A DNA stretch of 64,000 nucleotides from contig NZ_PCPS01000003.1 in NCBI RefSeq assembly GCF_002975405.1, positions 186,001 to 250,000 on the forward strand. The letters are read 5' to 3'. The notes under the pieces are model-generated. The model searched no databases. It saw only the letters and a program-made list of their open reading frames with translations, and was not told where the DNA came from. Source of the stretch: Arthrobacter sp. MYb229 (GTDB lineage Bacteria > Actinomycetota > Actinomycetes > Actinomycetales > Micrococcaceae). Below, one piece after another: positions 46,543-63,584 of this stretch. Made by a program: the position numbers and the translations under genes. Within the stretch, counting starts at the first letter, position 1. Every line of letters begins with the position of its first letter.

Positions 46543-47955
46543 CTAATGCTGAAGCGCCGCTTCGGTGTTCGTCGCGGAGAACTCTCCGAAGGCGCCACGG
46601 TACCGCGCCGCGGGGTGGTTCTCCGGAAGCTTGTCTCCGCGTCCAAAGACCTTCGCACGCAGGCTGCCCGGAGCATATTCGCTCTGCGCCAAACCGCGCC
46701 GCCGCAGCTCGGGAAGCAGCCCCTCGATGAAGTTGTCATAGGAGCCAGGCAAAATGTGGTTGATGACATTCAGCCCGTCGATCCCCGCATCCTGCCATTC
46801 GAGCAGCTTGTCGGTGATCTGTTCCGGGGTTCCCACGATCTGCTGGGCCTTGGCCCGGTAGTGCGCGAGGTCGCGCAGCGTCGGGTTGCGGCCCGGGGTG
46901 GAAGCCAGCGCGGCTTCCAGGACGCCTTGGGCGCCCTCGGTTTTCACCTCGCCCAGCGGGGTGTCCAAATCCAATCCGCCCAAATCCACGCCGATGCCTC
47001 CACCGATGTGAGCGATGATCGCGTGCGGATCAAGGTACTGGTCGTATTCGGCTTCCAGCGCTTTGGCCTCCGCCTCGGTGGAGCCGACCACGAAGGAAAG
47101 GCCTGCGAAGACCTTCAGATCCTCGCGGCTGCGGCCCGCGGCGTTGAGGTTCTGCGTCAACGCGGCGACCTTCTTGGCCACATACGCCGGGTGCGGCGCG
47201 AAGAGGAACGTCGCCTCTGCATGGGTGGCCGCGAATTGGCTTCCGCGAGGAGAGGATCCCGCCTGGAAGAGGAATGGTGTGCGCTGGGCGCTGGGAATCG
47301 CCTGATGCGGGCCGTCGATCGAATAGATCTCGCCGCGGTGATTGATCTTGTTAATGCGCGCCGGGTCGGCGTAAATCCCAGATTCCTTGTCGGCCTTCAG
47401 CGCATCGTCTTCCCACGAGCCTTCCCAGAGCTTGTAAGCGGCATCGACGTATTCCTCGGCCCACCCATAACGGTCGTCGTGGGCCATGAGGTTCTTCGCG
47501 CCGAAATTGCGGTGCGAGTTCTCCAGCACGCTGGTCACGATATTCCATGCCACGCGTCCTTGCGAGAGATGGTCCAGCGTGGAGATCTGTCGTGCGAATT
47601 GGAACGGATGGGACTGGACGACCGAACTGGTCATCGCCAGCCCGATCTCCTTGGTGCTGGCGGCCAGCGCCGAAAGCAGCACCAGCGGGTCGTGGCTCGG
47701 GATTTGCATTCCCTTGCGTGCCAGGGAGGCCCAACCGCCCTCGTGATCTGCGTACAGTCCGGCCACGTCGGCGAAGAACAGGTTGTCGAATTTCGCATCT
47801 TCGAGTTTCTTGGCCAGATCCACCCAGAGCCCCAGCTCATGGAACCGGTCCTGTTGCGCTTCCGGATGACGCCACATTCCGCCGAGGATATGGCTAGAAG
47901 TATTCATCAGGAAGGCCGAGAGGATGAAGCGTGGTCGTGTTTCGAAGGTACCCAT
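46543..47955 (-). CDS. FMN-dependent monooxygenase, NtaA/SnaA/DszA type (copy 1)
   Basis: A luciferase-like flavin monooxygenase that would use FMNH2 and O2 to open a C-S bond of a sulfone, sulfonate or thioether. The 470-residue protein has the family start (FILSAFLMNTSSHILGGMWRHPEAQ in part), the FMN-site segments LDHLSQGRVAWNIVTS and FLFQAGSSPRGSQFAATHAEA, and the substrate-dimer region near LNVINHILPGSYDNFIEGLLPEL. It is the last gene of the operon led by the riboswitch at 54532-54616, starting two bases after the upstream stop with AGGGAG ahead. Paralogue of 60782-62185. Confidence 0.88.
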   Translation of the reverse strand: MGTFETRPRFILSAFLMNTSSHILGGMWRHPEAQQDRFHELGLWVDLAKKLEDAKFDNLFFADVAGLYADHEGGWASLARKGMQIPSHDPLVLLSALAASTKEIGLAMTSSVVQSHPFQFARQISTLDHLSQGRVAWNIVTSVLENSHRNFGAKNLMAHDDRYGWAEEYVDAAYKLWEGSWEDDALKADKESGIYADPARINKINHRGEIYSIDGPHQAIPSAQRTPFLFQAGSSPRGSQFAATHAEATFLFAPHPAYVAKKVAALTQNLNAAGRSREDLKVFAGLSFVVGSTEAEAKALEAEYDQYLDPHAIIAHIGGGIGVDLGGLDLDTPLGEVKTEGAQGVLEAALASTPGRNPTLRDLAHYRAKAQQIVGTPEQITDKLLEWQDAGIDGLNVINHILPGSYDNFIEGLLPELRRRGLAQSEYAPGSLRAKVFGRGDKLPENHPAARYRGAFGEFSATNTEAALQH

Positions 47956-47956
47956 T

Positions 47957-49180
47957 TTACTTTGCTCCCTTGGCTTCGCCGATTGAGTTCAGGCCGGTCG
48001 GAATCGTGCCATTGATGAAGTAGTCGCCTACCGAGCGGGCCTTGAAGGCCACCGGGTTGTGCGTGGCGACGGTGCGTGCGTTGCGCCAGTAGCGGTCCAG
48101 CGACTTGCTGGTGGACACCGCCGAGGCGCCGGTGACGTCGAACAGTTCGCTCGTCGCATCGAGCACCAGCTTGGGCGTGATGACGTGTGCCTGCTGCACC
48201 GCGATCTCCGCGCGTAGGAAAGCGGCTTCGTCATCCAGGTTCAGCGCCGGGTCGTGGGCGGCATCCAGTTCGCGGGCCGCGGTGACCACAATAGCTTCCG
48301 CGGCGTATACGTTCGCCGCAAGCCGGCCCACCAGTTCCTGAATCTGCGGATCGTTGCGGAACAATTCTCCGGAGCCGGTATTGAAGGTCCGGGTGCGGGT
48401 TTCCACGATGCGGGCGGCCTCGTCACGCGCGGCCTTGCCGATGCCGACGAGTACCGCAAGCAGGCAAAGCTGGAAGAACGCGGGCTCCAGCGTGGAGGCG
48501 ACCTTGCGTTGCAGGATATTTGCCTCTTCAACGGGAACCTCGGTAAAAATACCGGTTCCGGTACCGGTCAGCGGCTGGCCGAAGCCGTCCCAGTCGTCAA
48601 GGATCTCCACCCCTTCGCCGTGGCGGTCAACGATTGCGTACTGGCGGCCTTCGACGCCTTCGGTGGAGGCCATCACGACTACCCAATCGGCGAAGATCGA
48701 GCCGGTGGTGTAGTACTTTTCGCCGTTGAGCACCCAGCCGACAGCGCCCCGGCTGAGCCGGGTGTTGGTGGTTCCCAGCGCGTTGCCACCACGTTCGGTG
48801 GCCGCATTGCCGAAGATCTGGCCGGCGAGCACGCGGGGGAACCAGCGGTCCTGGAATTCTTGGGGCTGCAGCGCGATCGTTTCGACAAAGGAGAAGTGGC
48901 TGCGCAGCAGGTGGGCGACGTTCGAATCCGCGGAGGCCAATTCGATCAGCAGCCGGAAAAGATGCTCGTGGCTGACCGGTTCCCCGCCGTGGCTGCGCGG
49001 CACACGCAACGTGGTGAAGCCGGCGTCCTTGAGCCATTGCACCTGCTCGAAGGGCAGGATCCGCTGCTGCTCGCGCTGCGTAGCGCCCTCGCCCACGCGG
49101 GCGAAGACCGGAGCGAAACGCTCAGCCAGGGCCTGGTAGGTGGCTTCGGGACTCAGGGTTTGGCTGAGGTCAATGCTCAT
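47957..49180 (-). CDS. Acyl-CoA dehydrogenase-fold flavin oxidoreductase, SfnB/DszC-like (copy 1)
   Basis: The 407-residue protein has the acyl-CoA dehydrogenase fold but follows the sulfur-acquisition SfnB/DszC branch: LPFEQVQWLKDAGFTTLRVPRSHGGEPVS (in part), NAATERGGNALGTTNT, LNGEKYYTTGSIFADWVVV, and a C-terminal arginine-rich DRYWRNARTVATHNPVAFK. Members oxidise sulfur compounds or hand reduced flavin to a partner monooxygenase; here the partner is encoded immediately downstream. ATG 49180 is preferred (AGGAATGAGAAG upstream) to 49201. The specific substrate is not evident. Confidence 0.87.
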   Translation of the reverse strand: MSIDLSQTLSPEATYQALAERFAPVFARVGEGATQREQQRILPFEQVQWLKDAGFTTLRVPRSHGGEPVSHEHLFRLLIELASADSNVAHLLRSHFSFVETIALQPQEFQDRWFPRVLAGQIFGNAATERGGNALGTTNTRLSRGAVGWVLNGEKYYTTGSIFADWVVVMASTEGVEGRQYAIVDRHGEGVEILDDWDGFGQPLTGTGTGIFTEVPVEEANILQRKVASTLEPAFFQLCLLAVLVGIGKAARDEAARIVETRTRTFNTGSGELFRNDPQIQELVGRLAANVYAAEAIVVTAARELDAAHDPALNLDDEAAFLRAEIAVQQAHVITPKLVLDATSELFDVTGASAVSTSKSLDRYWRNARTVATHNPVAFKARSVGDYFINGTIPTGLNSIGEAKGAK

Positions 49181-49230
49181 GTGCTTCTCATTCCTTGTCA
49201 CTGGAAATCTGTCTGGGATGAATCTGCCGC

Positions 49231-50853
49231 TCAGGCGCTGCGCAGGTGCTCGAATTCGCGCAGCACCGCGCCGGGGTTCGCCGCAAGCAGGGTGCGCGTG
49301 TATTCATGGCGGGGGTTGGAGAACACCTGCTCAACGGTTCCGGTTTCCACCAGTTCGCCGCGGCGCATCACGCCCACCCGGTGGCTGATCCGTTCGACCA
49401 CGTGCAGGTCATGGGAGATGAACAGGTAGGTCAATTGCTGTTCGGTCTGCAGCCGATCGAGCAAGTTGAGGATCTGTTCCTGGGTGAGCACATCGAGCGC
49501 GCTCAATGCTTCGTCGAGGACCAGGATCTTCGCGCCGCTGGCCAGGGCGCGGGCGATGGCCACGCGTTGGCGCTGGCCCCCGGAAAGTTCCGGCGAGCGC
49601 TTGGCGGCCAGTTCCGGGGCGAGGTTCACCTGCGCCATCAGCTCGTTCGTACGTGCTTCGCGCCAGGCTGAATCGCCAAGCCTGTAGTTGCGCATCGGCT
49701 CCTGGATGATCGAACGGACCGTTTGCCGGGGGTCCAGAGCCGAGTCGGGGTTCTGGTAAACCAGCTGCGCCTCGCGCCACAGCGCGTAGCGCTGCTTGCC
49801 GCCGATTGAGCTGACGTCCTGGCCGTTCACCTCGACGCTGCCCTGGCTTGCGCCAAGCAGCCCCATGATGATTTTAGCCGTCGTCGACTTTCCCGATCCC
49901 GACTCTCCGACCAGCGAGAAGGTCGTGCCGCGAGCCACCTCGAAGCTGACCTGCTGGACCGCCTGATGCGCCTTGGAACCCTGTCCAAACTCCTTGCCGA
50001 GGTCCGTCACGCGAATCGCCACGTCGCTGATTTCGGCCGTGTCTCGGCGCTGGTTGGTGGCGTACGCCTGGTCGAGCAGGGCCTTGGTGTAGTCATTGGT
50101 GCTGCTGGCAATCAGCTCGCGGACCGAACGGTCTTCGAGAACCTCGCCACCATTCATCACCAGCACCCGGTCGGCGATGTCGGTAGCTACGGCGAGGTCG
50201 TGGGTGACGAACAGGACGGTGGTCCCCTTCTGCCGGGCCAGGGACACGAAGACTTCAAGCACCGTGCGCTGCACGGTGACATCCAGTGCGCTGGTTGGCT
50301 CGTCGGCGATCAGCAGCTGCGGATTCAGCGCGAAGGCGATGGCGATCAGCACGCGTTGCTTCAGCCCGCCGGATAGCTCGTGCGGGTACTGGCTCAGGCG
50401 TTGCTCCGCCCGGTCGATCCCGACGCTGCCGAGCAGTTCGATGGCTTTTTCACGCCACCGGTTCTTGGGCACCGAACGGGACGGGTGTAGGCGGAACACC
50501 TCGATGAGCTGCGAGCCGATGGTCTTCACCGGGTCGAGCGAGGCGCCCGGGTCCTGCGGGACCAGCCCGATACCGGCGCCCCGGATATCGCGCCATTGAC
50601 GCAAGCTCAGCGCGGTGACCTCGGTGCCGCCAAAGCGGATGCTGCCGGTGGTGCTGGCGTCCTGGGGAAGCAGCCCGATCAGTGCCTTGGTCAGCGTCGA
50701 TTTCCCCGAACCCGATTCGCCAACGATTGCCACGATCTGCCCGGCCGGGATTTCGAGGTTGATCCCCTGCGCGGCGAGGGTGCCTTGGGCGTACCGCACC
50801 GAAAGATCCTCGATGCGCACGACCGGGTTGGTGCCGGTGTTCTTGGTAGTCAT
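49231..50853 (-). CDS. ABC importer ATPase, fused DppD-DppF type
   Basis: Two nucleotide-binding domains in one 540-residue chain power the importer encoded upstream. Domain 1: Walker A GESGSGKST, signature LSGGLKQRV, Walker B LLIADEPTSALDV; domain 2 (from about residue 290): Walker A GESGSGKSTTAK, signature LSGGQRQRVAIARAL, Walker B ILVLDEALSALDV. Fused pairs like this are common in actinobacterial peptide/nickel-type uptake systems. It lies in mid-operon, between permease C and the SfnB-like gene. Confidence 0.93.
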   Translation of the reverse strand: MTTKNTGTNPVVRIEDLSVRYAQGTLAAQGINLEIPAGQIVAIVGESGSGKSTLTKALIGLLPQDASTTGSIRFGGTEVTALSLRQWRDIRGAGIGLVPQDPGASLDPVKTIGSQLIEVFRLHPSRSVPKNRWREKAIELLGSVGIDRAEQRLSQYPHELSGGLKQRVLIAIAFALNPQLLIADEPTSALDVTVQRTVLEVFVSLARQKGTTVLFVTHDLAVATDIADRVLVMNGGEVLEDRSVRELIASSTNDYTKALLDQAYATNQRRDTAEISDVAIRVTDLGKEFGQGSKAHQAVQQVSFEVARGTTFSLVGESGSGKSTTAKIIMGLLGASQGSVEVNGQDVSSIGGKQRYALWREAQLVYQNPDSALDPRQTVRSIIQEPMRNYRLGDSAWREARTNELMAQVNLAPELAAKRSPELSGGQRQRVAIARALASGAKILVLDEALSALDVLTQEQILNLLDRLQTEQQLTYLFISHDLHVVERISHRVGVMRRGELVETGTVEQVFSNPRHEYTRTLLAANPGAVLREFEHLRSA

Positions 50854-50891
50854 AATCTGATCCCTTCACAAATTTTGGTCCCCGATGCCGG

Positions 50892-51782
50892 TTAGAAGCG
50901 GAATGCCTTGTTGATTGCGCGGCCGAGCACGGCGGTGAGCATCACTGCCGCGACGATCACCAGCCCCGGAAGCGTGGTCAACCACCAGGCGACGGTGAGG
51001 TATTGGCGGCCTTCGGAGATCAGCAGCCCCCATTCGGGTGTTGGCGGCGGCGAGCCGAATCCTAGGAAGCCGAGCCCGGAGATCGCCAGGATCGCCGCAC
51101 CCAGGTCGACCGCCAGCAGGGCGAGCACCGGGCCGATCACGTGCGGGATGATATGGCGGCGCAGCACGGTGAGGTAGCCGCCACCGCTCATCAGCGCCGC
51201 TTGCACGAAATCGCGTGAACGTACGCGCAGCACCTCGGTGCGGACAAGCCGCGCGAAGGCCGCGATCGAGGCGATGCCCACACCGAGTCCCAGCGAGAAT
51301 GGACCGGGTTCGGTCGCGGTGACCAGGATCAGCGCGATCAGGAAGGCGGGAACCGCCAGCACCACGTCGACGAAGCGCATCGCGACCGAATCGGCGAAAC
51401 GGCCGGCGGTGGCGGCGAGCAGGCCCAGCAGGCTGCCCACCACGCTGCCGATCAGGCAGGCCAGTCCGGCGGTCATCAGCGTCTGGCTGGTTCCGTGGAC
51501 CACCCGGGCATAGACGTCGCGCCCCAGGTGGTCGGTTCCGAAGGGATGGGCCAGCGATGGTTCCGCGAGCTTCTGCTGCGGCACCCCGGTGAGCGGGTCC
51601 TGTCCGGTGAACAGCCCCGGCAATACCGCCCAGGCGAGCAGAAGCGCCAGCGGGAGGAGCACCCACCAGTTCCGCAACCAGCCAAGCAGCGTGGTCTTGG
51701 GCGTGGCGCCATGCTCCGGCTCGAGCGCGCTGCCAGTGGCCAGCTCCACGGCCGGGGTGCCCCGTTCGGTCAAAAGACTCAT
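50892..51782 (-). CDS. ABC importer permease, DppC type
   Basis: The 296-residue permease has five or six TMs and the DppC-like signature (HPFGTDHLGRDVYARVVHGTSQTL in part; the EAA-type loop around VQAALMSGGGYLTVLRRHIIPHV). It pairs with the DppB-like protein to form the channel. Located between dppB-like and the ATPase gene, all on the minus strand with small gaps. Confidence 0.92.
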   Translation of the reverse strand: MSLLTERGTPAVELATGSALEPEHGATPKTTLLGWLRNWWVLLPLALLLAWAVLPGLFTGQDPLTGVPQQKLAEPSLAHPFGTDHLGRDVYARVVHGTSQTLMTAGLACLIGSVVGSLLGLLAATAGRFADSVAMRFVDVVLAVPAFLIALILVTATEPGPFSLGLGVGIASIAAFARLVRTEVLRVRSRDFVQAALMSGGGYLTVLRRHIIPHVIGPVLALLAVDLGAAILAISGLGFLGFGSPPPTPEWGLLISEGRQYLTVAWWLTTLPGLVIVAAVMLTAVLGRAINKAFRF

Positions 51783-51797: not shown

Positions 51798-52754
51798 CTA
51801 GGCTGCCAGCGCGCGAGGCGAACCGGCGTGGGAGGTGATGATGCGTGGATCAAGCTTCGGATGGATCAGGTCGACGAGCAGATTCACCGCGGTAAAGGCG
51901 GCGGCGGTGAGCAGCACCAGTCCCTGCACCAGCGGGATGTCCTGCACCGTGACCGCCTGCAGCACCAGCTGGCCCAGTCCGGCACGGGCAAAAACCGTCT
52001 CGGTGATAACGGAACCGGCGAGCAGGGTGCCGATGGTGATGCCCGCGATGGATAGCGCCGCCGGGGCGGCGTTTTTCAGCGTGTGCCGGTAGAAGATCCA
52101 TTCCTCGCTGGCGCCCTTGGCCCGCAAGACATCGACGAAGGGCTGAGTGTTCACCTCGTGCACGCTCTTGATCAGCACCTGGGCGATGGGTGCGCTGAGG
52201 TGGATGGCCAGAACGAGGATCGGCACCGCCAGCGAGAGGAACGAGCCGTCCGGGAACAGCGACATCACCCCGAGCTGCACCGCGAGCACCTGAAGCAGCA
52301 CCAGTCCGAGCCAGAACACCGGGATGGAAATCATCAGCGGTGGCAGATTCAGCAGGGCGTTGCGGACCCGGGGGCGGCGCGACAGGCTGGCGGCGGCGGT
52401 CAACGCGACCGCCAGCACCAGCGCCAGGGCGAAGGCGCTCCCGGCGAGCAGCAGCGTGGAGCCGATGACCTCGCCTATTCGGGTGGACACCGCCGAGCCG
52501 GAGGACAGGGAATAGCCCAGGTCTCCGGTCAGCAGCGCACCGAGCTGGGTGAAGTACTGCACGATCAGCGGCTGGTCATAGCCGTAGTAGGCCTTCATCT
52601 GCGCGATCGTTGCCGGATCCGCAGACGAGTCTGCGGAGAGGAAGATCGTGACCGGGTCGTTCGGCAGGGCCTGCACCGCGAGGAAGACCGCGGTGTAGGC
52701 CAGCAGGATCACCAGCAGTGCCTGACCGATGCGTTGTGCGATGTATCCACCCAT
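51798..52754 (-). CDS. ABC importer permease, DppB type
   Basis: The 318-residue permease has six TMs; the N-terminal start YIAQRIGQALLVILLAYTAVF, the periplasmic segment ALPNDPVTIFL and the ATPase-contact loop VLRAKGASEEWIFYRHTLKNA are all typical of the DppB family. ATG 52754 is preferred (AAAGGAAC upstream) to the long frame to 52868, which runs into the binding-protein gene. Twelve bases separate it from that gene. Confidence 0.92.
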   Translation of the reverse strand: MGGYIAQRIGQALLVILLAYTAVFLAVQALPNDPVTIFLSADSSADPATIAQMKAYYGYDQPLIVQYFTQLGALLTGDLGYSLSSGSAVSTRIGEVIGSTLLLAGSAFALALVLAVALTAAASLSRRPRVRNALLNLPPLMISIPVFWLGLVLLQVLAVQLGVMSLFPDGSFLSLAVPILVLAIHLSAPIAQVLIKSVHEVNTQPFVDVLRAKGASEEWIFYRHTLKNAAPAALSIAGITIGTLLAGSVITETVFARAGLGQLVLQAVTVQDIPLVQGLVLLTAAAFTAVNLLVDLIHPKLDPRIITSHAGSPRALAA

Positions 52755-52765
52755 GTTGAGTTCCT

Positions 52766-54406
52766 TTAGCCGTTGCTCTTCCAGGCGCCCTGGAAGATTG
52801 GTGCGGTGCCGGAGGTGAAGTCGATGTGCGCGTCCTTGTTGGCGCCGTACACCTGCACTTCGTCCCACAACACGAGGGTCAATGCCTTGTCCAGTACCAG
52901 CGCGCGCTGCTCCTCGCCGATGAGCTCCAGATGCTCTTCTTCGGTGGTCGCCGCCTGCTCACGGGTGAACAATTCGTTCAGTTCCTTGTCGGCGTTCAGC
53001 GTCTGGTTATTTGTCGCCGGCGCGTAGACCGGCCCCAGACCGCCGTAGGCGAACTGGCGGGTTCCGAAGAATTCGATCTGGTCATCGACCATGGCGTTGG
53101 TCAAAAATGAATTGTCCGCAGCACGGTTGACCAGCTGCACTCCGATCTCCCGCCATTGCTGTTCGATCAGCTCGAAGGCCGGCTTGATGACCACGGAGTT
53201 ATTCGAGCTGGCCACCGTGATTTCAAGCTTCTTGCCGTCCTTCTCACGGATCCCGTCCGCGCCAACGCTCCAGCCCGCTTCTTCAAGCAAGGCCTTGGAC
53301 TTCTCCGGGTCATAGCCGAGCTCGGCAGACAGATCCACGAAGCCCGGTGCCTGGTGGTTGAGGATCGACCCTGCGAGCACATAGCTGTCCGAGAGGACCG
53401 TGTCCTTCAGCGCCTGGCGGTCGATTCCCACCTGCAACGCCTGGCGCACCTTGGTCTCGGCCAGCTTGCCCGAACCGATTCGAATCGCGGCATGGTTGGT
53501 AGTCAGGTCCACGCCTTGGGCGGCGAAGATCTGCCCGCCTCCGGCACTGAGCACCTCTTCGTCAACGGGCTGCAGTCCGCGGACCAAATCGACCTGGCCG
53601 GACTGCGCCGCGCCGGCCCGGTGGGCAACTTCTGGCAGGTACTTGACGACCAGTTTTTCAAGGTATGCGTCACCCTGGTTTGCTGCGGTTTCCGGGGCCC
53701 AGGCGTAGTCATCGCGGCTGGTGAAGACGACTTCTTCATCTGGCTTTTCGGATTCGAAGACGAACGGTCCGGAACCGACGATCTGCGATATTGCGGTTTG
53801 CCCTGCATTGTCCAGTTCCAGTGTGCCCGGGGATACCAGCCCGGCGGTCACCGAGGAGGTGGAGCGCAGGAAGTTCGCATCCGGGCGCTTCAGGGTCACC
53901 TTGACCTGGTTCGCGCCGACGACCTCGGAGCTCTTGTAGGCTGAAAAGTCGACGTTCGGTTGAATCTGCGCGGACTCTACGCCTAAGCCAAGCGCGTCCA
54001 GATTTTTCTTGACCGCTTCGGCATCCAGGGCCGTGCCGTCTGAGAATGTGACGCCATCACGAATGGTGAAGGTGAATTCGGTCTGTGCCTTATTGGCGGT
54101 GAATTCGGAGGCGATCCAGCCTACGAGCTTGCCGGATTCGGTATCAAAATAGGTCAACCGATCCAGCACCGAGTTCAGCACATTCGCCTTCTCGTAGAAG
54201 CGAGCGGCCTGGGTCTGCCAGTTGTTGATCGGGGTTACCTCGGCAAAGGTGAACGTTCCTCCCTCTACCGGGGCGCCTGCTTCCGCGGAAGCTGCCGGCT
54301 CGGAGCTCTCCGCGGTGGATGCGCTGTTGCCGCCACAGGCGGTCAGCGAAAGACCTAGAACTGCGAGTAGTGCTGCGGCCTTCAGGCTCAGTGGTGTGTT
54401 GCGCAT
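52766..54406 (-). CDS. ABC importer substrate-binding lipoprotein (SBP family 5)
   Basis: The extracytoplasmic receptor of the importer. The 546-residue protein has a lipoprotein signal (LLAVLGLSLTAC) and the family 5 fold of DppA/OppA/NikA proteins (FTFTIRDGVTFSDGTALDAEAVKKNL, in part, and ALQVGIDRQALKDTV). The ligand is unknown; given its SAM-riboswitch leader and its operon with sulfur-oxidising flavoenzymes, an organosulfur compound is more likely than a plain peptide. First gene of the operon. Confidence 0.92.
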   Translation of the reverse strand: MRNTPLSLKAAALLAVLGLSLTACGGNSASTAESSEPAASAEAGAPVEGGTFTFAEVTPINNWQTQAARFYEKANVLNSVLDRLTYFDTESGKLVGWIASEFTANKAQTEFTFTIRDGVTFSDGTALDAEAVKKNLDALGLGVESAQIQPNVDFSAYKSSEVVGANQVKVTLKRPDANFLRSTSSVTAGLVSPGTLELDNAGQTAISQIVGSGPFVFESEKPDEEVVFTSRDDYAWAPETAANQGDAYLEKLVVKYLPEVAHRAGAAQSGQVDLVRGLQPVDEEVLSAGGGQIFAAQGVDLTTNHAAIRIGSGKLAETKVRQALQVGIDRQALKDTVLSDSYVLAGSILNHQAPGFVDLSAELGYDPEKSKALLEEAGWSVGADGIREKDGKKLEITVASSNNSVVIKPAFELIEQQWREIGVQLVNRAADNSFLTNAMVDDQIEFFGTRQFAYGGLGPVYAPATNNQTLNADKELNELFTREQAATTEEEHLELIGEEQRALVLDKALTLVLWDEVQVYGANKDAHIDFTSGTAPIFQGAWKSNG

Positions 54407-54531
54407 TTTCTGGTGTTCCTCTCGGTAATTTCCCGAGGATTACGCCGAAATCCCGATCCTGCCGCGGTATTGCGGGGCGGGAAGAAGGCAGACTTCTCCC
54501 CTGTGCGGACCGTTGCGAAATCTAGCAATCT

Positions 54532-54616
54532 CCATCGGTCCTGGCCTTAGCACCGCTCCCTGCCGGGATGGTTGCTGCAACGTCAACGAGCCAGGTCTCT
54601 CGGTCGCTCTGGATGG
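54532..54616 (-). promoter_or_regulatory. SAM riboswitch (SAM-I/IV clan) upstream of the ABC/monooxygenase operon
   Basis: Read on the minus strand: P1 CCATC/GATGG, then CAGAG, P2 GCGAC pairing with GTTGC, the core GAGAGA, a P2 loop CCTGGC, GCAGCAACC, a P3 stem, and GGTGCTA followed by GGCCAGG, which can pair with the P2 loop as the pseudoknot. No P4 hairpin lies between P3 and P1, so it fits the SAM-IV or SAM-I/IV-variant class better than canonical SAM-I. A 125-nt leader follows; the switching device is unclear, though a CTCGG/CCGAG hairpin adjoins the ribosome site. Confidence 0.85.
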
Positions 54617-54679
54617 TTATCATTCGGTGTCTTTGCCGAACAATTTAAGTCTGCGCGCGCAGGTGCGGTGTGACCAACC

Positions 54680-54935: not shown

Positions 54936-55847
54936 CTACTCGGCGGATACCGGAGTCAGCACTCCTTGGACCAACGGATCCTCGGTGTTCTTCAGGTATT
55001 CCTGCAGTCTTGGATCGGAGAACACCTCGATTAGCTTGGCTGCATCGGCAGTTTTGGAGAACTCGGTGCCGAAGATCAGCTTGGAGGCGAAGGTTCTAGG
55101 CGGTTCCGGGAACAGGATTCCCTTGTCGCGGCCGACCTTTCCGGCATCGAACTGCGACACGTATCCGATGGCTGCATCCACATCGTCTAGCATGCGCGGC
55201 ATGGCGAGGAGGTCTGCTTCCTTCAGCTCGAAGCCGCGCGGGTTGTCAACCACGTCGGCCATCTTCGCGGTACGCGGTTCGATGTCGGGGTTCAGGCCGA
55301 GCAGTCCCTCGCGCTCCAGGAGCCAAAGCGCTTGCCCCTGGTTGGCGACGTCGTTAGGCAGGAGCAGCGTCGACCCCTCGGGGAGAACCTCGACCGATTC
55401 GTAGCGGGTGGAATACAGACCGAAGCCCCATTGGTACAGTTCAACGGTTGGCGTCAATTCCACGCCGGCGGCTTCTGCCGATTGCCGCATGTACCACTCA
55501 TGTTCAAAGATGGTCGCGTCGAACTGCCCTTCGGCCACGGCGCGGTTCGCCTGGATTGGATCCTGAAGCCCAATGGGTTCTATCTCGATTCCATAATCCG
55601 GCGCGATGGTCTCGGCCACGAATTTCAGGATCTTCTCTTCCCCGGCCATTGCCGGTTCAAAATGGACCTTGAAATTCGTTTTGCCGGGCTCGGTGGACGC
55701 GAGCGCTGGAGCGGACTTTTGCTGAACCAGCAACGCGCCAAGGACGAGCGCCACAATGGTCGCGCATGCCGCGATGGTCCAAGGCAGTTTCGCGGTGTTT
55801 TTACGCAGAGTGAAGCCATGGTCATGGCCTTTGGGTGAAGTCGTCAT
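54936..55847 (-). CDS. metQ: Methionine ABC transporter substrate-binding protein MetQ
   Basis: A NlpA/MetQ-family receptor for methionine. The 303-residue protein shows the fold (LKFVAETIAPDYGIEIEPIG, QANRAVAEGQFDATIFEHEWYM in part, LPNDVANQGQALWLLEREGLL, DVDAAIGYVSQFDAG). It has no lipobox; instead residues about 24-43 (TIAACATIVALVLGALLV) form a TM segment after a 20-residue cytoplasmic start, so it is probably anchored by an uncleaved or Sec-cleaved helix. GAGAAG precedes ATG 55847. Last gene of the metNIQ operon. Confidence 0.92.
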   Translation of the reverse strand: MTTSPKGHDHGFTLRKNTAKLPWTIAACATIVALVLGALLVQQKSAPALASTEPGKTNFKVHFEPAMAGEEKILKFVAETIAPDYGIEIEPIGLQDPIQANRAVAEGQFDATIFEHEWYMRQSAEAAGVELTPTVELYQWGFGLYSTRYESVEVLPEGSTLLLPNDVANQGQALWLLEREGLLGLNPDIEPRTAKMADVVDNPRGFELKEADLLAMPRMLDDVDAAIGYVSQFDAGKVGRDKGILFPEPPRTFASKLIFGTEFSKTADAAKLIEVFSDPRLQEYLKNTEDPLVQGVLTPVSAE

Positions 55848-55872: not shown

Positions 55873-56568
55873 TTAGGGGCGGGCCAGCGCGCGGGCGATG
55901 CGATCGCCGAGGAATTGGACTGCTTGCACGGTCAGAATGAGCGCAAGGATCGTGGCAAGCATGACATTCATGTCGAACCGCTGATAGCCGTAGGTGACCG
56001 CCAGATAGCCGATGCCGCCGGCCCCGATGGTTCCCGCGATGGCCGAATACTCGACCATCGAGATGGTGTTCAGCGTGACGGCGGAGGCCAGGGCGGGCAG
56101 CGCCTCACGGATCTGGGTTGCCCCGATGATTTGCAGCGGCGATCCACCGGTCACCAGCCCGACGGCCAGGTTCTCCTTAGGCAGATCATTGAGCGCGTTC
56201 TGCACGAGCCGCGCGAAGAAGGGAATGCCCGCAATGGTCATCGGCACCACTGCTGCCCAAATGCCGATGGTGGTTCCGGTCACCCATTTGGTGAATGGAA
56301 TAATCGCCGCCATCAAGACCAGGAACGGCAATGAGCGTCCCATGTTGACGAACCAGCTCAGTGCCGCATGGCTCTTGTCGTGCGGAAAGAGACCCTGCCG
56401 GTCGGTGTTGAACAGCGCCAAACCCATGATGCCGCCAAAAATGATCACCAAGACCATCACGATGCCGACCATTGCCCAGGTCTGTCCATAGGCAGGAAGC
56501 ATCAGGGCGGGCAGTTCGTTCCATGGGGTGTCGGTACCGACCGCTGCGCTTTCGGTTGGGATTCTCAT
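55873..56568 (-). CDS. metI: Methionine ABC transporter permease MetI
   Basis: The 231-residue permease has five TMs and the MetI pattern (MGRSLPFLVLMAAIIPFTKWVTGT in part; VTGGSPLQIIGATQIREALP as the ATPase-contact loop). ATG 56568 overlaps the metN stop as ATGA with GAGGTGG just upstream; the frame continuing to 56649 only reads through metN and is rejected. Confidence 0.93.
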   Translation of the reverse strand: MRIPTESAAVGTDTPWNELPALMLPAYGQTWAMVGIVMVLVIIFGGIMGLALFNTDRQGLFPHDKSHAALSWFVNMGRSLPFLVLMAAIIPFTKWVTGTTIGIWAAVVPMTIAGIPFFARLVQNALNDLPKENLAVGLVTGGSPLQIIGATQIREALPALASAVTLNTISMVEYSAIAGTIGAGGIGYLAVTYGYQRFDMNVMLATILALILTVQAVQFLGDRIARALARP

Positions 56569-57599
56569 ACCGCCACCTCGATGCGTTCCGCGCGGTCGGC
56601 CACACTCGCGAGGAGCTGCTGGGATCGTGGCGTGGCGCGCAATCCCCATCCAGCCAAGACGGCAATAGCTCGTTCTGCGGCAATGCCCGCGAGACCGATT
56701 TCAACGCGGCCCAGCGTTCCCTCGTGGTGTGCTTCCACGGAGCCACCGAGCAGCGCGACCCGCGCGCCATGTTCGGTTCCCAGCCGGGATATCCAGGCTG
56801 GGTCCACATTTGCCGCCTGGTAGGCCACGGTCAGCGTGAAGTCGTAGCCGGCGGGCACCAGATCGGGGCGCAATGGCAGAAGCTTTGAACCGGTCACCGA
56901 TCCCGGATCCGCTACCAGGCCTCGAAGTTCGCCGTACTCGGCGATTCGACCGCCATCGAGTTGCGCGACGCGGTCGGCGATATGGCGCACCACATCCATC
57001 TCGTGGGTGATCAAGATAATCGCCAAGCCCAAGTCGGTGCGCAGGGAATCAAGCAGTTCCAGCACCTGCGTGGTGGATTCCGGGTCGAGCCCCGAGGTTG
57101 CTTCATCGGAGAGCAGCAGACGCGGACGCAGCGCCAGCGCTCGGGCAATGCCCACGCGTTGGCGTTGGCCACCGGAAAGTTCTCCGGGGTACGAATTTGC
57201 CCAATCCGCCAGACCTACGCGATTCAGGAGTTCAGCGACCCGGTTTTCCATCTCGTGGTGGACTACTCCCAGGTTTCGCAGCGGCAACGCAACGTTTTCG
57301 GCTACCGTCATGCGGCGCAAAAGGGCCGAGTTCTGGAAGATCGTGCCGATGGCACGACGTTCGGCGCATAGTTCTTTGCCAGAGAGCACCGACAAGTCCT
57401 TGCCTTCTACCAGGATCTGACCGCTGCTGGGCTTTTCCAACAGCGAGATGCAATGGGACAAGGTGGACTTCCCGGCGCCTGAGGGCCCAACCACCGCGGT
57501 GATTGTCCCCGATTGAACGTCCAGGTCGATCCCCTTGAGGACCTCCACACGGCCCTGGGCCGTTTCGTAGTGCTTATGCAGCTGGCGAATCTCAATCAT
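56565..57599 (-). CDS. metN: Methionine ABC transporter ATPase MetN
   Basis: The 344-residue ATPase drives methionine uptake. Walker A GPSGAGKST, signature LSGGQRQRVGIARAL, Walker B LLLSDEATSGLD and switch His (LITHEMDVV) are present, and the C-terminal NIL-type domain (about 255-335) is the methionine sensor that gives trans-inhibition. ATG 57599 has no good Shine-Dalgarno of its own; the strong AAGGAG lies 33 bases upstream and serves the short frame at 57592-57627. First gene of metNIQ, under the riboswitch at 57749-57832. Confidence 0.94.
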   Translation of the reverse strand: MIEIRQLHKHYETAQGRVEVLKGIDLDVQSGTITAVVGPSGAGKSTLSHCISLLEKPSSGQILVEGKDLSVLSGKELCAERRAIGTIFQNSALLRRMTVAENVALPLRNLGVVHHEMENRVAELLNRVGLADWANSYPGELSGGQRQRVGIARALALRPRLLLSDEATSGLDPESTTQVLELLDSLRTDLGLAIILITHEMDVVRHIADRVAQLDGGRIAEYGELRGLVADPGSVTGSKLLPLRPDLVPAGYDFTLTVAYQAANVDPAWISRLGTEHGARVALLGGSVEAHHEGTLGRVEIGLAGIAAERAIAVLAGWGLRATPRSQQLLASVADRAERIEVAV

Positions 57600-57627: not shown

Positions 57628-57748
57628 TTGTTCTCCTTGGTGCTGGCACCGCGCAGAGTCTCAAACAGCGACGATCCACGGATTCAGGATGCCGCTGGCT
57701 TTCGCCAGGCTCTGAATCTCGGGAACAAAGCCGGTGTTTCAGACTGCT

Positions 57749-57832
57749 CCATCGGTCCTGGCTGTAGCACCGGCCCCGTGAGGGTGGTTGCTGCGACGTC
57801 GTTGAGCCAGGTCTCTCGGTCGCTCTGGATGG
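57749..57832 (-). promoter_or_regulatory. SAM riboswitch (SAM-I/IV clan) upstream of metNIQ
   Basis: Same architecture as at 54532: P1 CCATC/GATGG, P2 GCGAC/GTCGC, GAGAGA core, loop CCTGGCT with pseudoknot partner AGCCAGG, GCAGCAACC and GGTGCTAC, no P4. P2 and P3 bases differ from the other copies in ways that keep pairing. A 120-nt stretch with a further hairpin (GATTCAG/CTGAATC around TGGC-GAAA-GCCA, about 57680-57717) lies before the leader peptide and may be the expression platform. Confidence 0.88.
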
Positions 57833-57895
57833 TTACCATTCGATAGGTGAATCGAACAGTTTCAGTCTGTGCCCGTGCCCGCTTCGTGAACAACC

Positions 57896-58876: not shown

Positions 58877-60700
58877 ATGTCACGAGCAAGTACGAGAGCT
58901 ATCGCCAGCGCCGCGGCACTGGCGCTGGGACTGGGAACTTTCACCGCCCTTCCGGCCAGCGCCGATCCCAGGGCGACCGACAAAACGCCTACGGCCAAAG
59001 GCAGCGGCGGCGCAGTCTCCTCCGTAGACCCGGAAGCGACCGCCGCCGGAATCGAGATCCTGCGCAAAGGCGGCAACGCGGTTGATGCGGCGGTCGCAAC
59101 GGCGGCCGCGCTGGGCGTGACCGAGCCTTATAGCGCGGGCATCGGCGGCGGCGGCTACTTCATGTACTACGACGCGAAAACCGGAAAAATCAGCACCATC
59201 GACGGCCGGGAGACCGCACCGGCAGCAATGCCCCAAGATGCCTTCATCGATCCGGAAACCGGCGAGCCCTACAACTTCACTCCCGAACTGGTGACCAGCG
59301 GCGTGGCGGTCGGCGTGCCCGGCACCCTGGCCACCTGGCAGCGCGCGCTGGACAATTGGGGTTCCCAAAGCCTGAAGAAAGTTCTGCACCCAGCCACCCA
59401 GGTAGCTTCACGCGGCTTCGTTGTCGATGAAACATTCCGCGAACAGACCCTGGATAACAAGGAACGCTTCGCGACCTTCGGCTCCACCAGCGAGCTATTC
59501 CTGCCCGATGGCGATGCGCCGCACGTTGGCAGCATCTTCAAGAACCCGGATCTTGCCCAGACCTACCGGTTGCTGGCGAAGCAGGGCCCCTCGGCGTTCT
59601 ACCAGGGCGAAATGGCCGAAGAAATATCCCAGACGGTGCAGGCTCCGCCCACGTCCGCGGACACCGAACTCCCGGTTCCGGCTGGCTATGTGAGCACCGC
59701 CGATCTCGCGGACTACGAGGTCGTGGAGCAGCAGCCAACCCAGGTCAGCTACCGCGGCCTCGATGTTTACGGCATGGCTCCATCCTCCAGCGGAGGAACC
59801 ACCATCGGTGAATCGCTGAATGTTCTCGGCGAGTTCGACCTCGCCGGCATGGAGCGGCCCACCGCGCTTCATCACTACTTCGAGGCGACAGCCCTGGCCT
59901 ACGCCGACCGTGGCAAGTTTGTCGGCGACCCGGCCTTTGTGGATGTTCCCACCGAAATCCTGACCGACAAGCTCTTCGGCGTCGACCGGGCGTGCGCGGT
60001 AAACCCCGAACAGGCCGCGGAGAAGCCGGTGGCTCCGGGCGATATCGAGGGCTATGACGGAGTGTGCCCTGCGGCAACCAGCGAGCCGGTGGTTGAGCAG
60101 GATACCGAGAATATCTCCACCACCCACCTTTCGGTGGTGGACCGCTGGGGCAATGTCGTCTCCTACACCCTGACCATCGAGCAGACCGGAGGTTCGGGCA
60201 TCGTGGTGCCCGAGCGCGGCTTCCTGCTGAACAACGAGCTGACCGATTTCTCCACGGTGTACGATCCCGCCGACCCGAACCGGATCGAGCCGGGCAAGCG
60301 TCCGCGCTCCTCGATGGCGCCCACGATCGTGCTGCGCGATGGCGAACCGATGCTCGCCATCGGCTCCCCCGGCGGCTCCACCATCATCACCACGGTGCTG
60401 CAGACCCTGGTGAACCGCATTGACCTGGGCATGGATCTGAGCGAAGCCATCGCGGCCCCGCGCGCCTCGCAGCGCAATACCGCGGCGGTGACGGCGGAGC
60501 CCGAATTCATCGAGGCCTATGGGCCGGCGCTTGAGGCTTTCGGGCACAAGCTCACCGCCGCCGGTGATTCCTTCACCCCGCAGGCTGAGATCGGTGCGGT
60601 TGAGGCGGTGGAAATCGCCGCAGACGGGACCTTGATCGCGGCGGCTGAACCAAACCGCCGCGGAGGCGGTTCGGCCATGGTGGTGAACCCGGCCAAATAG
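58877..60700 (+). CDS. ggt: Gamma-glutamyltransferase, secreted
   Basis: It removes the gamma-glutamyl group from glutathione and related peptides outside the cell. The 607-residue precursor has a signal peptide cleaved near PASADP, a large-subunit core (GGNAVDAAVATAAALGVTEP, GIGGGGYFMYYD) and the autoprocessing site before T415 in ISTTHLSVVD, giving a small subunit of about 193 residues with the GSPGGSTI motif. AGGAG precedes ATG 58877. Its place among SAM-controlled sulfur operons suggests release of cysteinylglycine as a sulfur source; no riboswitch precedes it. Confidence 0.95.
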   Translation: MSRASTRAIASAAALALGLGTFTALPASADPRATDKTPTAKGSGGAVSSVDPEATAAGIEILRKGGNAVDAAVATAAALGVTEPYSAGIGGGGYFMYYDAKTGKISTIDGRETAPAAMPQDAFIDPETGEPYNFTPELVTSGVAVGVPGTLATWQRALDNWGSQSLKKVLHPATQVASRGFVVDETFREQTLDNKERFATFGSTSELFLPDGDAPHVGSIFKNPDLAQTYRLLAKQGPSAFYQGEMAEEISQTVQAPPTSADTELPVPAGYVSTADLADYEVVEQQPTQVSYRGLDVYGMAPSSSGGTTIGESLNVLGEFDLAGMERPTALHHYFEATALAYADRGKFVGDPAFVDVPTEILTDKLFGVDRACAVNPEQAAEKPVAPGDIEGYDGVCPAATSEPVVEQDTENISTTHLSVVDRWGNVVSYTLTIEQTGGSGIVVPERGFLLNNELTDFSTVYDPADPNRIEPGKRPRSSMAPTIVLRDGEPMLAIGSPGGSTIITTVLQTLVNRIDLGMDLSEAIAAPRASQRNTAAVTAEPEFIEAYGPALEAFGHKLTAAGDSFTPQAEIGAVEAVEIAADGTLIAAAEPNRRGGGSAMVVNPAK

Positions 60701-60705
60701 CCGTT

Positions 60706-60758
60706 AAAGCCAGCGAGTCCCCGCGGAATTCAACATTTCGCGGGGACTCGCTGGCTTT
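60706..60758. terminator. Bidirectional terminator, ggt / monooxygenase
   Basis: A 20-bp perfect stem (60706-60725 with 60739-60758), AAA at one foot and TTT at the other, between two convergent genes. Confidence 0.9.
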
Positions 60759-60781
60759 GCTAGCGCTTGATCTTCAAGGAT

Positions 60782-62185
60782 TTAGGCCTTGGTGGCCAAT
60801 CGGTTGGAGATCTTGTACTGGGCGGCACGGTGGGTGTCCTTCACCCGGTCACCTTCACCGAAGAGCTTGTGGCGCAGCGAGCCCTCGGTGTATTCGGTCT
60901 TGTAGACCCCGCGTGCCTGAAGCTCGGGAACCACGTACTCGACGACGTCCTCGAATGTACCTGGAGTGACAGCATAGGCCAGGTTGAAGCCATCTACGTC
61001 GGTGTATTCAACCCAGTCGATGAGCTTCTCGGCAACCTCGGCGCCGGAACCGACGGAGACCGGACCGAATCCGCCCACGCCGATCCATTCGGCCAGCTGG
61101 CGGATGGTCCATGGCTTGCCGGTATCACCGCTGGCCTTCTTGAAGGTTTCCACCGAGGACTGGATGGCGTTGGACTTCACGTCGTCGCCAATCACGTCAT
61201 CTGGTCCGTAAGCGGACATGTCGATGCCGGTCCAACCGGAAAGCAATGCCAGCGCGCCGTCGATATCCACGTAGGAGCTGTAGTCCTCGAACTTTGCCTG
61301 GGCAAGTTCCGAAGTTTCGGCGGTGATGATGGTCTGCATGGCGAAGATCTTGATGTCGTGGCGGCCACGGCCTGCGGCTTCGGCAGCGTCGCGGATTTTG
61401 GCGACCGCTTCTTTGAGCAGGTCACGGGTTGGGCAATTCACGAAGATCGCTTCGGCGTTCGACGCGGCGAATTCGGTGCCGCGCTTGGAGGCGCCGGCTT
61501 GGTAGATCACCGGGGTGCGCTGCGTGCTTGGCTCGGTGATGGCGATGCCCGGAACCTTGAAGTACTTGCCCTCGTGATTGATCGGGTGCACCTTGGAATG
61601 GTCGGTGTAGACGCCGGATTCCTTGTTGTTCTGCACCGCGTCCTCTTCCCACGAGCCTTCGAGCAGCTTGTAGACCACTTCGAGGTACTCATCGGCGTGG
61701 TTGTAGCGTTCGTCGTGCTCCATCTGGTCTTCTTGGCCCATGTTTCGGGCGGCCGATGGCAGGTAGCCGGTGACCACATTCCAGCCCACGCGGCCGTTGG
61801 TCAGGTGGTCCAGGGTGGCCAGGCGGCGCGCGAAGGCATAAGGGTGCTCATAGGCGGTACCCGCGGTGACGCCGAAGCCGAGGTTCTCGGTGACCGCGGC
61901 CATCGCGGAGACGAGCATCATCGGGTCATTGACCGGCGCCTGCGCACCGCTGCGCAGCGGAGTTTCGTTGGTGCCCTTGTAGACGTCGTAGGTGCCCAGC
62001 ACATCGGCGAGGAACAGGCCGTCGAACTTGCCCTTTTCCAGCACCTTGGCCAGGTGGGTCCAGTAGCCCAGGGTGTTGTAGGTCGACGCCTTGTCATCCG
62101 GGTGGCGCCAGAGGCCCGGCGACTGGTGCACCACGCAGTTCATATCGAAGGCGTTAAAAAGGATTTCGCGCTTGTTCTCGCTCAT
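60782..62185 (-). CDS. FMN-dependent monooxygenase, NtaA/SnaA/DszA type (copy 2)
   Basis: The 467-residue protein is a paralogue of the enzyme at 46543-47955: ILFNAFDMNCVVHQSPGLWRHPDD (in part), LDHLTNGRVGWNVVTGYLPSAARN, VIYQAGASKRGTEFAASNAEA, FNLAYAVTPGTFEDVVEYVVPEL. It should need reduced FMN from a separate reductase, which is not encoded in the window. ATG 62185 (AGGGG eight bases upstream) is preferred to 62203. It follows the second SfnB-like gene by 64 bp and shares its riboswitch. Substrate unknown. Confidence 0.88.
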   Translation of the reverse strand: MSENKREILFNAFDMNCVVHQSPGLWRHPDDKASTYNTLGYWTHLAKVLEKGKFDGLFLADVLGTYDVYKGTNETPLRSGAQAPVNDPMMLVSAMAAVTENLGFGVTAGTAYEHPYAFARRLATLDHLTNGRVGWNVVTGYLPSAARNMGQEDQMEHDERYNHADEYLEVVYKLLEGSWEEDAVQNNKESGVYTDHSKVHPINHEGKYFKVPGIAITEPSTQRTPVIYQAGASKRGTEFAASNAEAIFVNCPTRDLLKEAVAKIRDAAEAAGRGRHDIKIFAMQTIITAETSELAQAKFEDYSSYVDIDGALALLSGWTGIDMSAYGPDDVIGDDVKSNAIQSSVETFKKASGDTGKPWTIRQLAEWIGVGGFGPVSVGSGAEVAEKLIDWVEYTDVDGFNLAYAVTPGTFEDVVEYVVPELQARGVYKTEYTEGSLRHKLFGEGDRVKDTHRAAQYKISNRLATKA

Positions 62186-62249
62186 TGGTGTGCCCCTATC
62201 CATAGAAGAAATCTGGTTAGTCTAAAAATCTGTGTTCGAAGAGTGTTGC

Positions 62250-63584
62250 CTAGCTGCCGGCGAACCGGTTTGCTCCGGTTACCGTGCCGGTGACGGACAG
62301 CCGTTGGGGCTGCACGCCGTTGATCTCGTAGTCCCCCACGATGCGCGCCTTGTAGATCGCCGGATTGTGCGTCGCGATGGTTCGGGCGTTGCGCCAGTGG
62401 CGGTCCATATTGCAGCTATTGCGAGTGGAAGATGCACCCAGCGCGTCGAAGAGCTTGCTGGTCGCTCCGATGACCAGCGGCTGCACGATCGTCTGGGCAC
62501 GGTTTGCCGCCAATTCGCACACGGCAAAGCGCTCCTCGGCGTTCAGGTTCGCGTCGGCCATGGCCGACTCGACCTCCAGCACCGCGCCCATGACCACGGA
62601 CTCCGCGGCGAAGATTTCGGCGGAAACCTCCCCGACGAGCTGCAAGACCTGCGGTTCGCGGTGCACCGGAACTCCGGTGCCGGTGCTGAAACTGCGGGTA
62701 CGCGCCTGCACGGAGGAGCGCAGGTCGTTCAGTGCCGCCCGTCCGATTCCGGCCTGTACCGCCATGAGCACGAGTTGGAAGATCGCGGCTTCCGGATCCG
62801 TGGGATCCTCCGGCATGAAGGTGTCCACCGGAACTTCGTGGAATTCGGTGCTGCCGGTACCGGTGAGCTGTTGGCCGAAACCATCCCAGTCATCGAGGAT
62901 TTTCACGCCGCTGTGCTGGGTGGAAACTACCGCGATCTGGCGCCCTGGGAGTTGCGGGTGCGCCACCGCTACGGTGGTCCAGTCGGCGAAGATGGTGCCG
63001 GTGCAATAGAACTTCCGCCCATTGACCAGCCAGCGCGACCCCTCCTCGGTGACCTTGGTGTTGAGCAACCCGAGGGCGTTGCCGCCTTCCTCGGTGTAGG
63101 CGTTGCCCACGATCTGCCCGGAGCTGATTCGGGCAACCCATTTGCTACGGAGCTGCGCATCTTCCAGCCGCACCGCATTTTCCACGAAGGCAATATGCGC
63201 GCGCCATAGCTGAGCCACATGCGAGTCGGCCTCGGCTAATTCGATGAGCAACCGGAAGACATCGCTCAAGCGCGCCCCATGGCCGCCGTCGGCAACCGGC
63301 AGGCGCAGCGCACCGAAGCGCTCACGGTTCAGCAAGCCAACCTGTTCGAAAGGCAGGATCCGCTGCCGGTCGCGTTCCCTTGCACCCGCGGCGATCTGCG
63401 CGAACACCGGACGGAAAATGCCGGCAAGCCGTTCATACTGCTCGTCAGCGCCGGGGCCCGGGGTAATTTTCAGCAGCTGCCGGGTAGGAAGTTCCTGTGG
63501 AAGGTCGTCAAGCTCCACCGCGCTACCCGCAATAGACGGGTCGCTGAGCGCATTAAAGTCGCCAGCGGGATCGCCAAATGACAT
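62250..63584 (-). CDS. Acyl-CoA dehydrogenase-fold flavin oxidoreductase, SfnB-like (copy 2)
   Basis: The 444-residue paralogue of 47957-49180 carries the same landmarks (ILPFEQVGLLNRERFGALRLP, NAYTEEGGNALGLLNTKV, LVNGRKFYCTGTIFADWTTV, and the RHWRNARTIATHNPAIYK tail), with an extra N-terminal stretch of about 35 residues. The ATG lies 19 bases after the riboswitch, with GAGGAC seven bases upstream inside a GAAAG/CTTTC hairpin, so translation is the probable control point. It heads a two-gene operon. Confidence 0.88.
   Translation of the reverse strand: MSFGDPAGDFNALSDPSIAGSAVELDDLPQELPTRQLLKITPGPGADEQYERLAGIFRPVFAQIAAGARERDRQRILPFEQVGLLNRERFGALRLPVADGGHGARLSDVFRLLIELAEADSHVAQLWRAHIAFVENAVRLEDAQLRSKWVARISSGQIVGNAYTEEGGNALGLLNTKVTEEGSRWLVNGRKFYCTGTIFADWTTVAVAHPQLPGRQIAVVSTQHSGVKILDDWDGFGQQLTGTGSTEFHEVPVDTFMPEDPTDPEAAIFQLVLMAVQAGIGRAALNDLRSSVQARTRSFSTGTGVPVHREPQVLQLVGEVSAEIFAAESVVMGAVLEVESAMADANLNAEERFAVCELAANRAQTIVQPLVIGATSKLFDALGASSTRNSCNMDRHWRNARTIATHNPAIYKARIVGDYEINGVQPQRLSVTGTVTGANRFAGS

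Follow-up and report, generated by a model that had tools for sequence, protein, structure and literature searches.

Flavoenzyme pairs and importers behind SAM-I riboswitches in Arthrobacter sp. MYb229: a putative regulon for feeding organosulfur compounds into methionine

Which compounds are attacked by two flavoenzyme pairs whose operons both begin with S-adenosylmethionine (SAM) riboswitches, and how do these compounds reach the enzymes? The question is raised by a 64,000-nucleotide stretch of the genome of Arthrobacter sp. MYb229, a soil bacterium (contig NZ_PCPS01000003.1, positions 186,001 to 250,000; hereafter the window), in which an SfnB/DszC-like flavoprotein is encoded beside a flavin monooxygenase of the NtaA/DmoA family twice over (SfnB1-LLM1, pair 1; SfnB2-LLM2, pair 2). 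Flavin monooxygenases of both fold groups occur widely, many of them with no known substrate. We consider it fairly probable that the pairs belong to a SAM-I riboswitch regulon that draws sulfur for methionine from small organosulfur compounds.

We located the riboswitches with the RF00162 (SAM-I) covariance model, whose gathering score is 44.4 bits, and the genes behind them by profile matches. On the minus strand, the aptamer at 54529-54619 (55.6 bits) heads an operon encoding a family-5 substrate-binding lipoprotein (52766-54406), permease B (51798-52868, the open reading frame as called; several of its profile matches begin at residue 39), permease C (50892-51782), a fused double ATPase of the Opp/Dpp/Nik type (49231-50853), SfnB1 (47957-49201) and LLM1 (46543-47955). 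A binding protein, two permeases and the fused ATPase make up the complete peptide/nickel-type ATP-binding cassette (ABC) importer that an earlier, sequence-only reading had described. The lipoprotein is related to TIGR04028 (360.3 bits, cut-off 468.5); a Microbacterium relative, 36% identical to it, reaches 782.4 bits on the same profile. SfnB2 (62250-63584) and LLM2 (60782-62203), also on the minus strand, follow an aptamer at 63601-63701 (51.5 bits) with 16 bases between it and the ATG. The third complete aptamer (57746-57835, minus strand, 54.6 bits) leads genes on the same strand for a MetN-like ATPase (56565-57599), a MetI-like permease (55873-56649) and an NlpA/MetQ-family binding protein (54936-55847) whose ligand class is putative. 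All three proteins score below the NCBIfam cut-offs (258.5 vs 499.7 bits for MetN, 150.6 vs 212 for MetI, 87.2 vs 374 for MetQ); the other NlpA system of this genome likewise has its MetQ and MetI under cut-off. Riboswitches had been proposed before both flavoenzyme operons and before metNIQ; all three are there, but the name metNIQ has to give way to a family call. A fourth aptamer, on the plus strand, enters the window with its first 34 bases (63967-64000), crosses the right edge and heads ssuB-ssuA-ssuC-acsA beyond it.

The 4.0 Mb genome (23 contigs) contains seven SAM-I riboswitches above the gathering score. Besides the four operons already named, they lead a MetY gene ~13 kb past ssuBAC-acsA, a second MetY-like gene (contig C20) and two tandem SfnB-like genes (contig C12), so that the SAM-I gene set exceeds its first description. 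The tandem flavoproteins (L010:4464-7098) score 264.5 and 242.5 bits on the SfnB profile TIGR04022, below its cut-off, and the first also scores 250.8 bits on the DszC profile, again below cut-off; no LLM gene is labelled in that stretch.

A binding-protein search in named genomes returned 44 loci, 27 at 61-90% identity and 17 at 37% or less; seven of the former (L177-L183) are also counted in the genus set described below. In the closer group, all 27 loci have a SAM riboswitch at the head of the importer operon (L194 with a permuted gene order), and LLM1 and SfnB1 lie downstream in all 24 that are long enough, the other three being cut off. The proposal of a SAM-controlled organosulfur gene set is thereby supported as far as comparisons of this kind can carry it. 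No SAM riboswitch was found before the importer in any of the 17 distant loci. LLM-family genes still lie near the importer in some of them, Microbacterium for example, and the link between enzymes and importer is therefore wider than SAM control. In G457 (L128:11208-17899) another, distant family-5 importer and an SfnB-like gene likewise lie behind a SAM riboswitch; the pairing of importer and SfnB may thus have arisen more than once. We also surveyed 108 distinct riboswitch sites in fetched stretches, chosen partly for carrying these genes: flavoenzyme operons follow 54 of them, SsuBAC 19, MetY seven and an NlpA-type importer by itself seven, and 21 lead no labelled gene, although seven of these 21 turned out to lead acsA.

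The importer of pair 1 has undergone an exchange. Our genus set comprised 18 genomes, the window's included, that we assign to Glutamicibacter, and flanks and sequences were compared in 16 of them. In 17 of the 18, the order riboswitch-importer-SfnB1-LLM1 lies near SfnB2-LLM2 at one syntenic spot, where the importer is of the family-5 type in nine genomes and consists of MetN2-MetI2-MetQ2 in eight; MetQ2 belongs to the MetQ/NlpA family (PF03180, 201.5 bits). In 15 of 16 genomes LLM1 is followed by the CoA-binding gene known from the window (the G495 stretch ends at LLM1); the MmcQ-like and ABM-like genes adjoin it in 13 of them and stand 6-7 kb farther off in G498 and G502. On the opposite flank a gamma-glutamyltranspeptidase is present in all but G489 and G497. 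Relatives of the family-5 binding protein (at least 81% identity) occur in exactly the nine family-5-type genomes and in none of the other nine. LLM1 is 82-89% identical between importer types and 82-95% within the family-5 type, its six pocket columns are the same in both, and the residues fixed by importer type amount to five positions in LLM1 and two in SfnB1. The seven MetQ2-type rows form a single clade for LLM1 (support 100/97) and for LLM2 as a control (93/98), which fits one in-place exchange of the importer within the genus with the enzymes kept. Beyond the genus, the importer that goes with LLM1 is of the MetQ2 type in two genomes (G387, G340) and of the family-5 type in G504. No SfnB1-LLM1 operon was found in the 44 kb of G491 that were scanned, the rest of that genome not having been searched for LLM1; its locus (L225, G491:C1), with SfnB2 but no labelled LLM2 beside it and ssuB but no labelled ssuA or ssuC, is apparently eroding.

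The same enzymes behind two kinds of importer argue against a large or peptide-like substrate. On the simplest reading of these comparisons, both importers would carry one substrate, which would be no peptide and is probably not large. The sequence-only reading had proposed a larger or peptide-like sulfur compound as the ligand of the family-5 protein, an idea that we now regard as improbable. The protein's family-5 fold, the dipeptide-, opine- and glutathione-binding proteins among its structural matches and, in 14 of 16 genomes, a gamma-glutamyltranspeptidase gene sited between the operons would suit such a ligand, but a MetQ/NlpA-type importer takes its place in eight of the 17 operon-bearing genomes. 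Moreover, the column of DppA Asp436 (408 in the mature protein), which we take to be the peptide-anchoring residue, holds Arg in the window protein and 26 close relatives, a weak point in a loop whose predicted local distance difference test (pLDDT) score is below 50. The DppA R383D+D436R structure is also among the structural matches. The gamma-glutamyltranspeptidase itself (58877-60700, plus strand) may free sulfur compounds outside the cell; within the window, no riboswitch was found before it.

It is also conceivable, though we think it unlikely, that importers and enzymes share nothing but the SAM signal: the family-5, MetQ2 and MetNIQ-like systems would then carry methionine-like or peptide sulfur, and the compounds used by the flavoenzymes would diffuse in. 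The family of MetQ2 agrees with this. In seven of the eight Met2-type genomes no intact copy was found of the MetNIQ-like binding protein seen in the window, and MetQ2 could take over its part. However, both NlpA systems are present in G489, the MetNIQ-like operon is absent from four of the nine family-5-type genomes, and every one of the 18 genomes has a further NlpA-family protein outside this locus. The gene arrangement also speaks against a mere shared signal, since importer and enzymes form one operon in 16 of 16 genomes, with genes that overlap or lie at most 115 bases apart, and in G387, which belongs to another genus, the enzyme genes sit inside the importer operon (MetN2-MetI2-LLM1-SfnB-MetQ2). 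The exchange thus offers a natural test case, namely whether one compound is a ligand of both binding proteins and a substrate of LLM1 and SfnB1. Two further NlpA observations concern single genomes. A short stretch of G497 (G497:C5:150035-150385) matches the NlpA family but is interrupted by one in-frame stop and is probably a remnant of the MetNIQ-like operon, and an additional SAM riboswitch lies ~1.8 kb upstream of an NlpA-family gene in the family-5-type genome G493 (G493:C1:1218518-1221074).

As for the enzymes themselves, both paralogous pairs described earlier as SfnB/DszC-like with NtaA/DszA-like are present, and profile matches place the monooxygenases in the NtaA/DmoA family. LLM1 and LLM2, group C flavin monooxygenases with 484.7 and 546.4 bits on TIGR03860 (cut-off 279.7), are the sole proteins of the genome above that cut-off, ahead of five weak matches, and both lie far under the cut-offs for SfnG and SsuD. 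SfnB1, of the acyl-CoA dehydrogenase fold, and SfnB2 fall short of the SfnB cut-off (310.8 and 262 vs 430.9 bits) and of that for DszC, NF043015 (127.6 and 110.9 vs 850). The two SfnB proteins are 48% identical and the two LLM proteins 39%. We built an LLM tree of 80 rows, 73 proteins from fetched loci and seven references, several of the latter being long branches; it has no row for SfnG, SsuD, EmoA or a proven NtaA. LLM1 clusters with HcbA1, itself a long branch, in a 22-row group (100/96), and LLM2 falls in a 40-row group that contains DmoA (96/92), within which its own 28 rows form the sister group of the 12 that include DmoA. DszA, YtnJ and 3sdo, a chain labelled as nitrilotriacetate monooxygenase, lie on the opposite side of the tree from both (five rows, 100/99). 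Catabolism of aminopolycarboxylates by NtaA/EmoA-type enzymes, for which the family name of TIGR03860 is the one point in favour, is therefore highly improbable, and we rejected an NtaA/EmoA placement on tree position. The phylogeny that had been proposed as a check gave no such placement, the tree speaking through 3sdo and EmoA being judged by bit score, where it (5dqp) is the weakest full-length match at 153-155 bits; control by SAM riboswitches does not suit this catabolism either.

DmoA, the dimethylsulfide monooxygenase (6ak1), is 55% identical to LLM2 over 455 columns and agrees with it in six of six pocket columns, although LLM2, a predicted monooxygenase, sits outside the DmoA subgroup proper. 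These six positions are those that we presume to line the pocket of LadA. HcbA1, the hexachlorobenzene oxidative dehalogenase (6lr1), is the nearest solved relative of LLM1 (49% identity, common clade), but four of the six columns differ; we saw no sign of dehalogenation here and rejected it as the function of LLM1. Between LLM1 and LLM2 three of the six differ (LadA 14, 138 and 311), and the two therefore likely act on different substrates. MsuC-type enzymes form S-O bonds and DmoA-type enzymes cut C-S bonds, according to the accessible parts of PMC8234197. By analogy of fold, the SfnB proteins would form S-O bonds and the LLM proteins would cut C-S bonds.

The surroundings of pair 2 may connect the regulon to methionine. 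SfnB2-LLM2 is present in 16 of 16 genus genomes, and the divergent riboswitch leads ssuBAC-acsA in nine of them. In the other seven, ssuBAC is gone from this spot (the rest of these genomes was not searched for it), short ssuB or ssuC remnants being left in two, and the riboswitch lies 149-382 bases before acsA. An acetate-CoA ligase gene thus stands behind the riboswitch in all 16, even where ssuBAC was deleted. In the window's genome, acsA is the fourth gene of the operon (L008:5831-7795, contig C17, beyond the right edge), and its product passes the acetate-CoA ligase cut-off (TIGR02188, 751.9 vs 724.95 bits). Of the two MetY-type proteins, which share 41% identity, the first passes the O-acetylhomoserine sulfhydrylase cut-off (TIGR01326, 588.5 vs 495.1) and the second, called MetY-like here, stays below it (438.5). 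A ligase for organosulfur acids was considered for AcsA and rejected, and since it scores as an ordinary acetate-CoA ligase, acetate recycling is the simpler reading: MetY frees acetate, the ligase would recover it, and this would explain why the riboswitch-acsA link outlives ssuBAC. The presence of the ligase in a SAM regulon makes acetate recycling a testable step of the O-acetylhomoserine route. An extra riboswitch lies between ssuC and acsA in L186, L187 and L198 (Arthrobacter sp. MYb227 and two Paeniglutamicibacter), and in G512 the riboswitch leads acsA with MetY further along the same strand. Outside the genus, no acsA was found behind SsuC in the stretches L168, L173, L174 and L104 (551 bases were left in the last), and in L106 it is distant from SsuC on the other strand. 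Near the second MetY-like gene, contig C20 encodes MesX (PF08908, L009:584-2634) and a protein with a MetE catalytic domain (L009:3937-5458), presumably MesD-like.

The SsuBAC-type importer beside SfnB2-LLM2, under its own SAM riboswitch, removes the contrast with sulfonate-type importers that had been drawn earlier and brings in another account. In it, SsuBAC would import sulfonates, LLM2, LLM1 and the SfnB proteins would replace SsuD and release sulfite, and sulfite reduction would then be needed. SsuA passes the SsuA_fam cut-off (209.4 vs 163.5 bits) and the genome has no SsuD above cut-off, its best TIGR03565 matches being LLM2 (80.6 bits) and LLM1 (62.7) against 518.2; a SAM-riboswitch ssu operon is moreover known from Bacillus methanolicus (PMC4342826, in its accessible parts). 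We nevertheless judge this a possible rather than a probable explanation, because the substrate of DmoA, from which LLM2 differs at fewer than half of the compared columns, is a sulfide and no sulfonate, and because the pair is kept in the seven genomes without an adjacent ssuBAC. Somewhat more doubtful is a shortcut from methylated sulfur compounds to methionine. The DmoA-like LLM2 would free methanethiol from a methyl sulfide, methionine and acetate would arise when the second, MetY-like protein couples this methanethiol to O-acetylhomoserine, and the ligase would recycle the acetate; pair 1 would do likewise for a methionine-sized compound carried by either of two unrelated importers. Sulfite, sulfide and homocysteine would have no part in such a route, and this would explain both the SAM control and the riboswitch-acsA link kept after the loss of ssuBAC.

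We return to the supply of sulfur to methionine from small organosulfur compounds, the explanation that we favour. When SAM is low, the leaders would permit the making of importers and flavin enzymes. Compounds for pair 1 would enter through the family-5 importer or, in sister species, the MetQ/NlpA-type one, and those for pair 2 through the adjacent SsuBAC-type importer. The SfnB-type enzymes would oxidise the sulfur and the LLM enzymes would cut the C-S bond with reduced flavin mononucleotide (FMNH2) and O2; SAM-controlled MetY would then join the released sulfur to O-acetylhomoserine, and the SAM-controlled ligase would recover the acetate. Pair 1, in the HcbA1 clade, and pair 2, on the DmoA side, would use different compounds, both likely small, about the size of methionine or less. 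An RNA sensor would thus tie two flavoenzyme pairs to the methionine end of sulfur metabolism. Of all this, the genes, their order in operons, the aptamer sequences, the conservation, the importer exchange and the position of acsA and MetY behind riboswitches were observed directly; the response to SAM, the substrates, the reactions and the translational switching are inferences. Several points weigh against this explanation. The two importers could differ in ligand and feed promiscuous enzymes, and MetQ2 might import methionine itself. The retention of SfnB2-LLM2 without a neighbouring ssuBAC means that the pair does not depend on that importer alone for its supply. There are many further uses for AcsA, and 14 of the surveyed riboswitch sites, all outside the genus, lead no labelled gene. 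Finally, no FMN reductase of PF03358 was found in these operons; four are encoded elsewhere in the genome, other reductase families not having been searched for.

The leaders suggest how such control could work. In the ssuB leader, a GGAG ribosome site lies within the 3' strand of aptamer helix P1 (GATGGAGATGAAAATG), as it does similarly in leaders of several genera, and SAM would therefore be predicted to hide the ribosome site directly. In MetQ2-type leaders GCTCC would pair with the GGAGC ribosome site, a hairpin that appears in the minimum-energy fold of five of the five leaders folded; its CTCC could also bind the GGAG with which P1 ends. The window's family-5 operon has a 122-base leader between its aptamer and the operon start, with a candidate Shine-Dalgarno hairpin in which CCTCGG...CCGAGAGG spans the ribosome site. 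A hairpin at that site was found in six of six folded leaders of this type, GAGGA itself being paired in five, and these folds are overall little better than those of shuffled sequences. Translational switching by all of these leaders is thus a prediction.

How much of this was known? Sulfonate uptake and MetY have each been described before as being under SAM control. The accessible parts of PMC4342826 describe ssuA1-ssuC1-ssuB1-acsA1-thrA of B. methanolicus, where a SAM riboswitch, a sulfonate-type importer and acsA share one operon; no SfnB or LLM is named there (the first gene is given by locus tag only), there is a PyrR site as well, and gene order and phylum differ. In Candidatus Pelagibacter ubique (PMC5069961, accessible parts), MetY under a SAM riboswitch uses methanethiol to form methionine and frees acetate, which resembles our regulon in a SAM-controlled MetY fed by organosulfur and in control at the level of translation; the riboswitch is of the SAM-V class, however, the pathway is that of dimethylsulfoniopropionate, and no SfnB/LLM importer operons are mentioned in those parts. 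The Pseudomonas sfn/msu pathway for dimethylsulfone, as far as it is set out in PMC8234197, likewise combines an acyl-CoA-dehydrogenase-fold enzyme that makes S-O bonds with TIM-barrel enzymes that cut C-S bonds and a separate FMN reductase, but it has its own regulators instead of SAM riboswitches, and LLM1 and LLM2 fall well short of the SfnG and SsuD cut-offs.

Corynebacterium glutamicum has a TIGR04028 protein above cut-off in our profile search. Koch 2005 reportedly dealt with ssu/seu. The McbR/SsuR/CysR regulon of this species, in the accessible parts of PMC2580772, PMC2807442 and PMC1779776, includes ssu, seu, metY and the peptide-type ABC importer cg2678-74, the last under McbR (PMC2807442, PMC2580772); sulfur thus controls a sulfonate importer, sulfonate-ester monooxygenases, MetY and a peptide-type importer there too. 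Transcription factors do so in place of riboswitches, and cg2674 is a carboxymuconolactone-decarboxylase-like protein rather than an SfnB/LLM pair. The actinobacterial groups in the riboswitch survey PMC3766115 are, in its accessible parts, Corynebacteriaceae and Mycobacteriaceae, with no entry containing "Micrococc", and we found no description of this regulon in the open-access full-text literature. As far as that literature goes, what is new against these systems is that SfnB/LLM pairs with importers stand behind SAM riboswitches across Micrococcaceae, that the importer has been exchanged, and that acsA is a steady member of the putative regulon within the genus.

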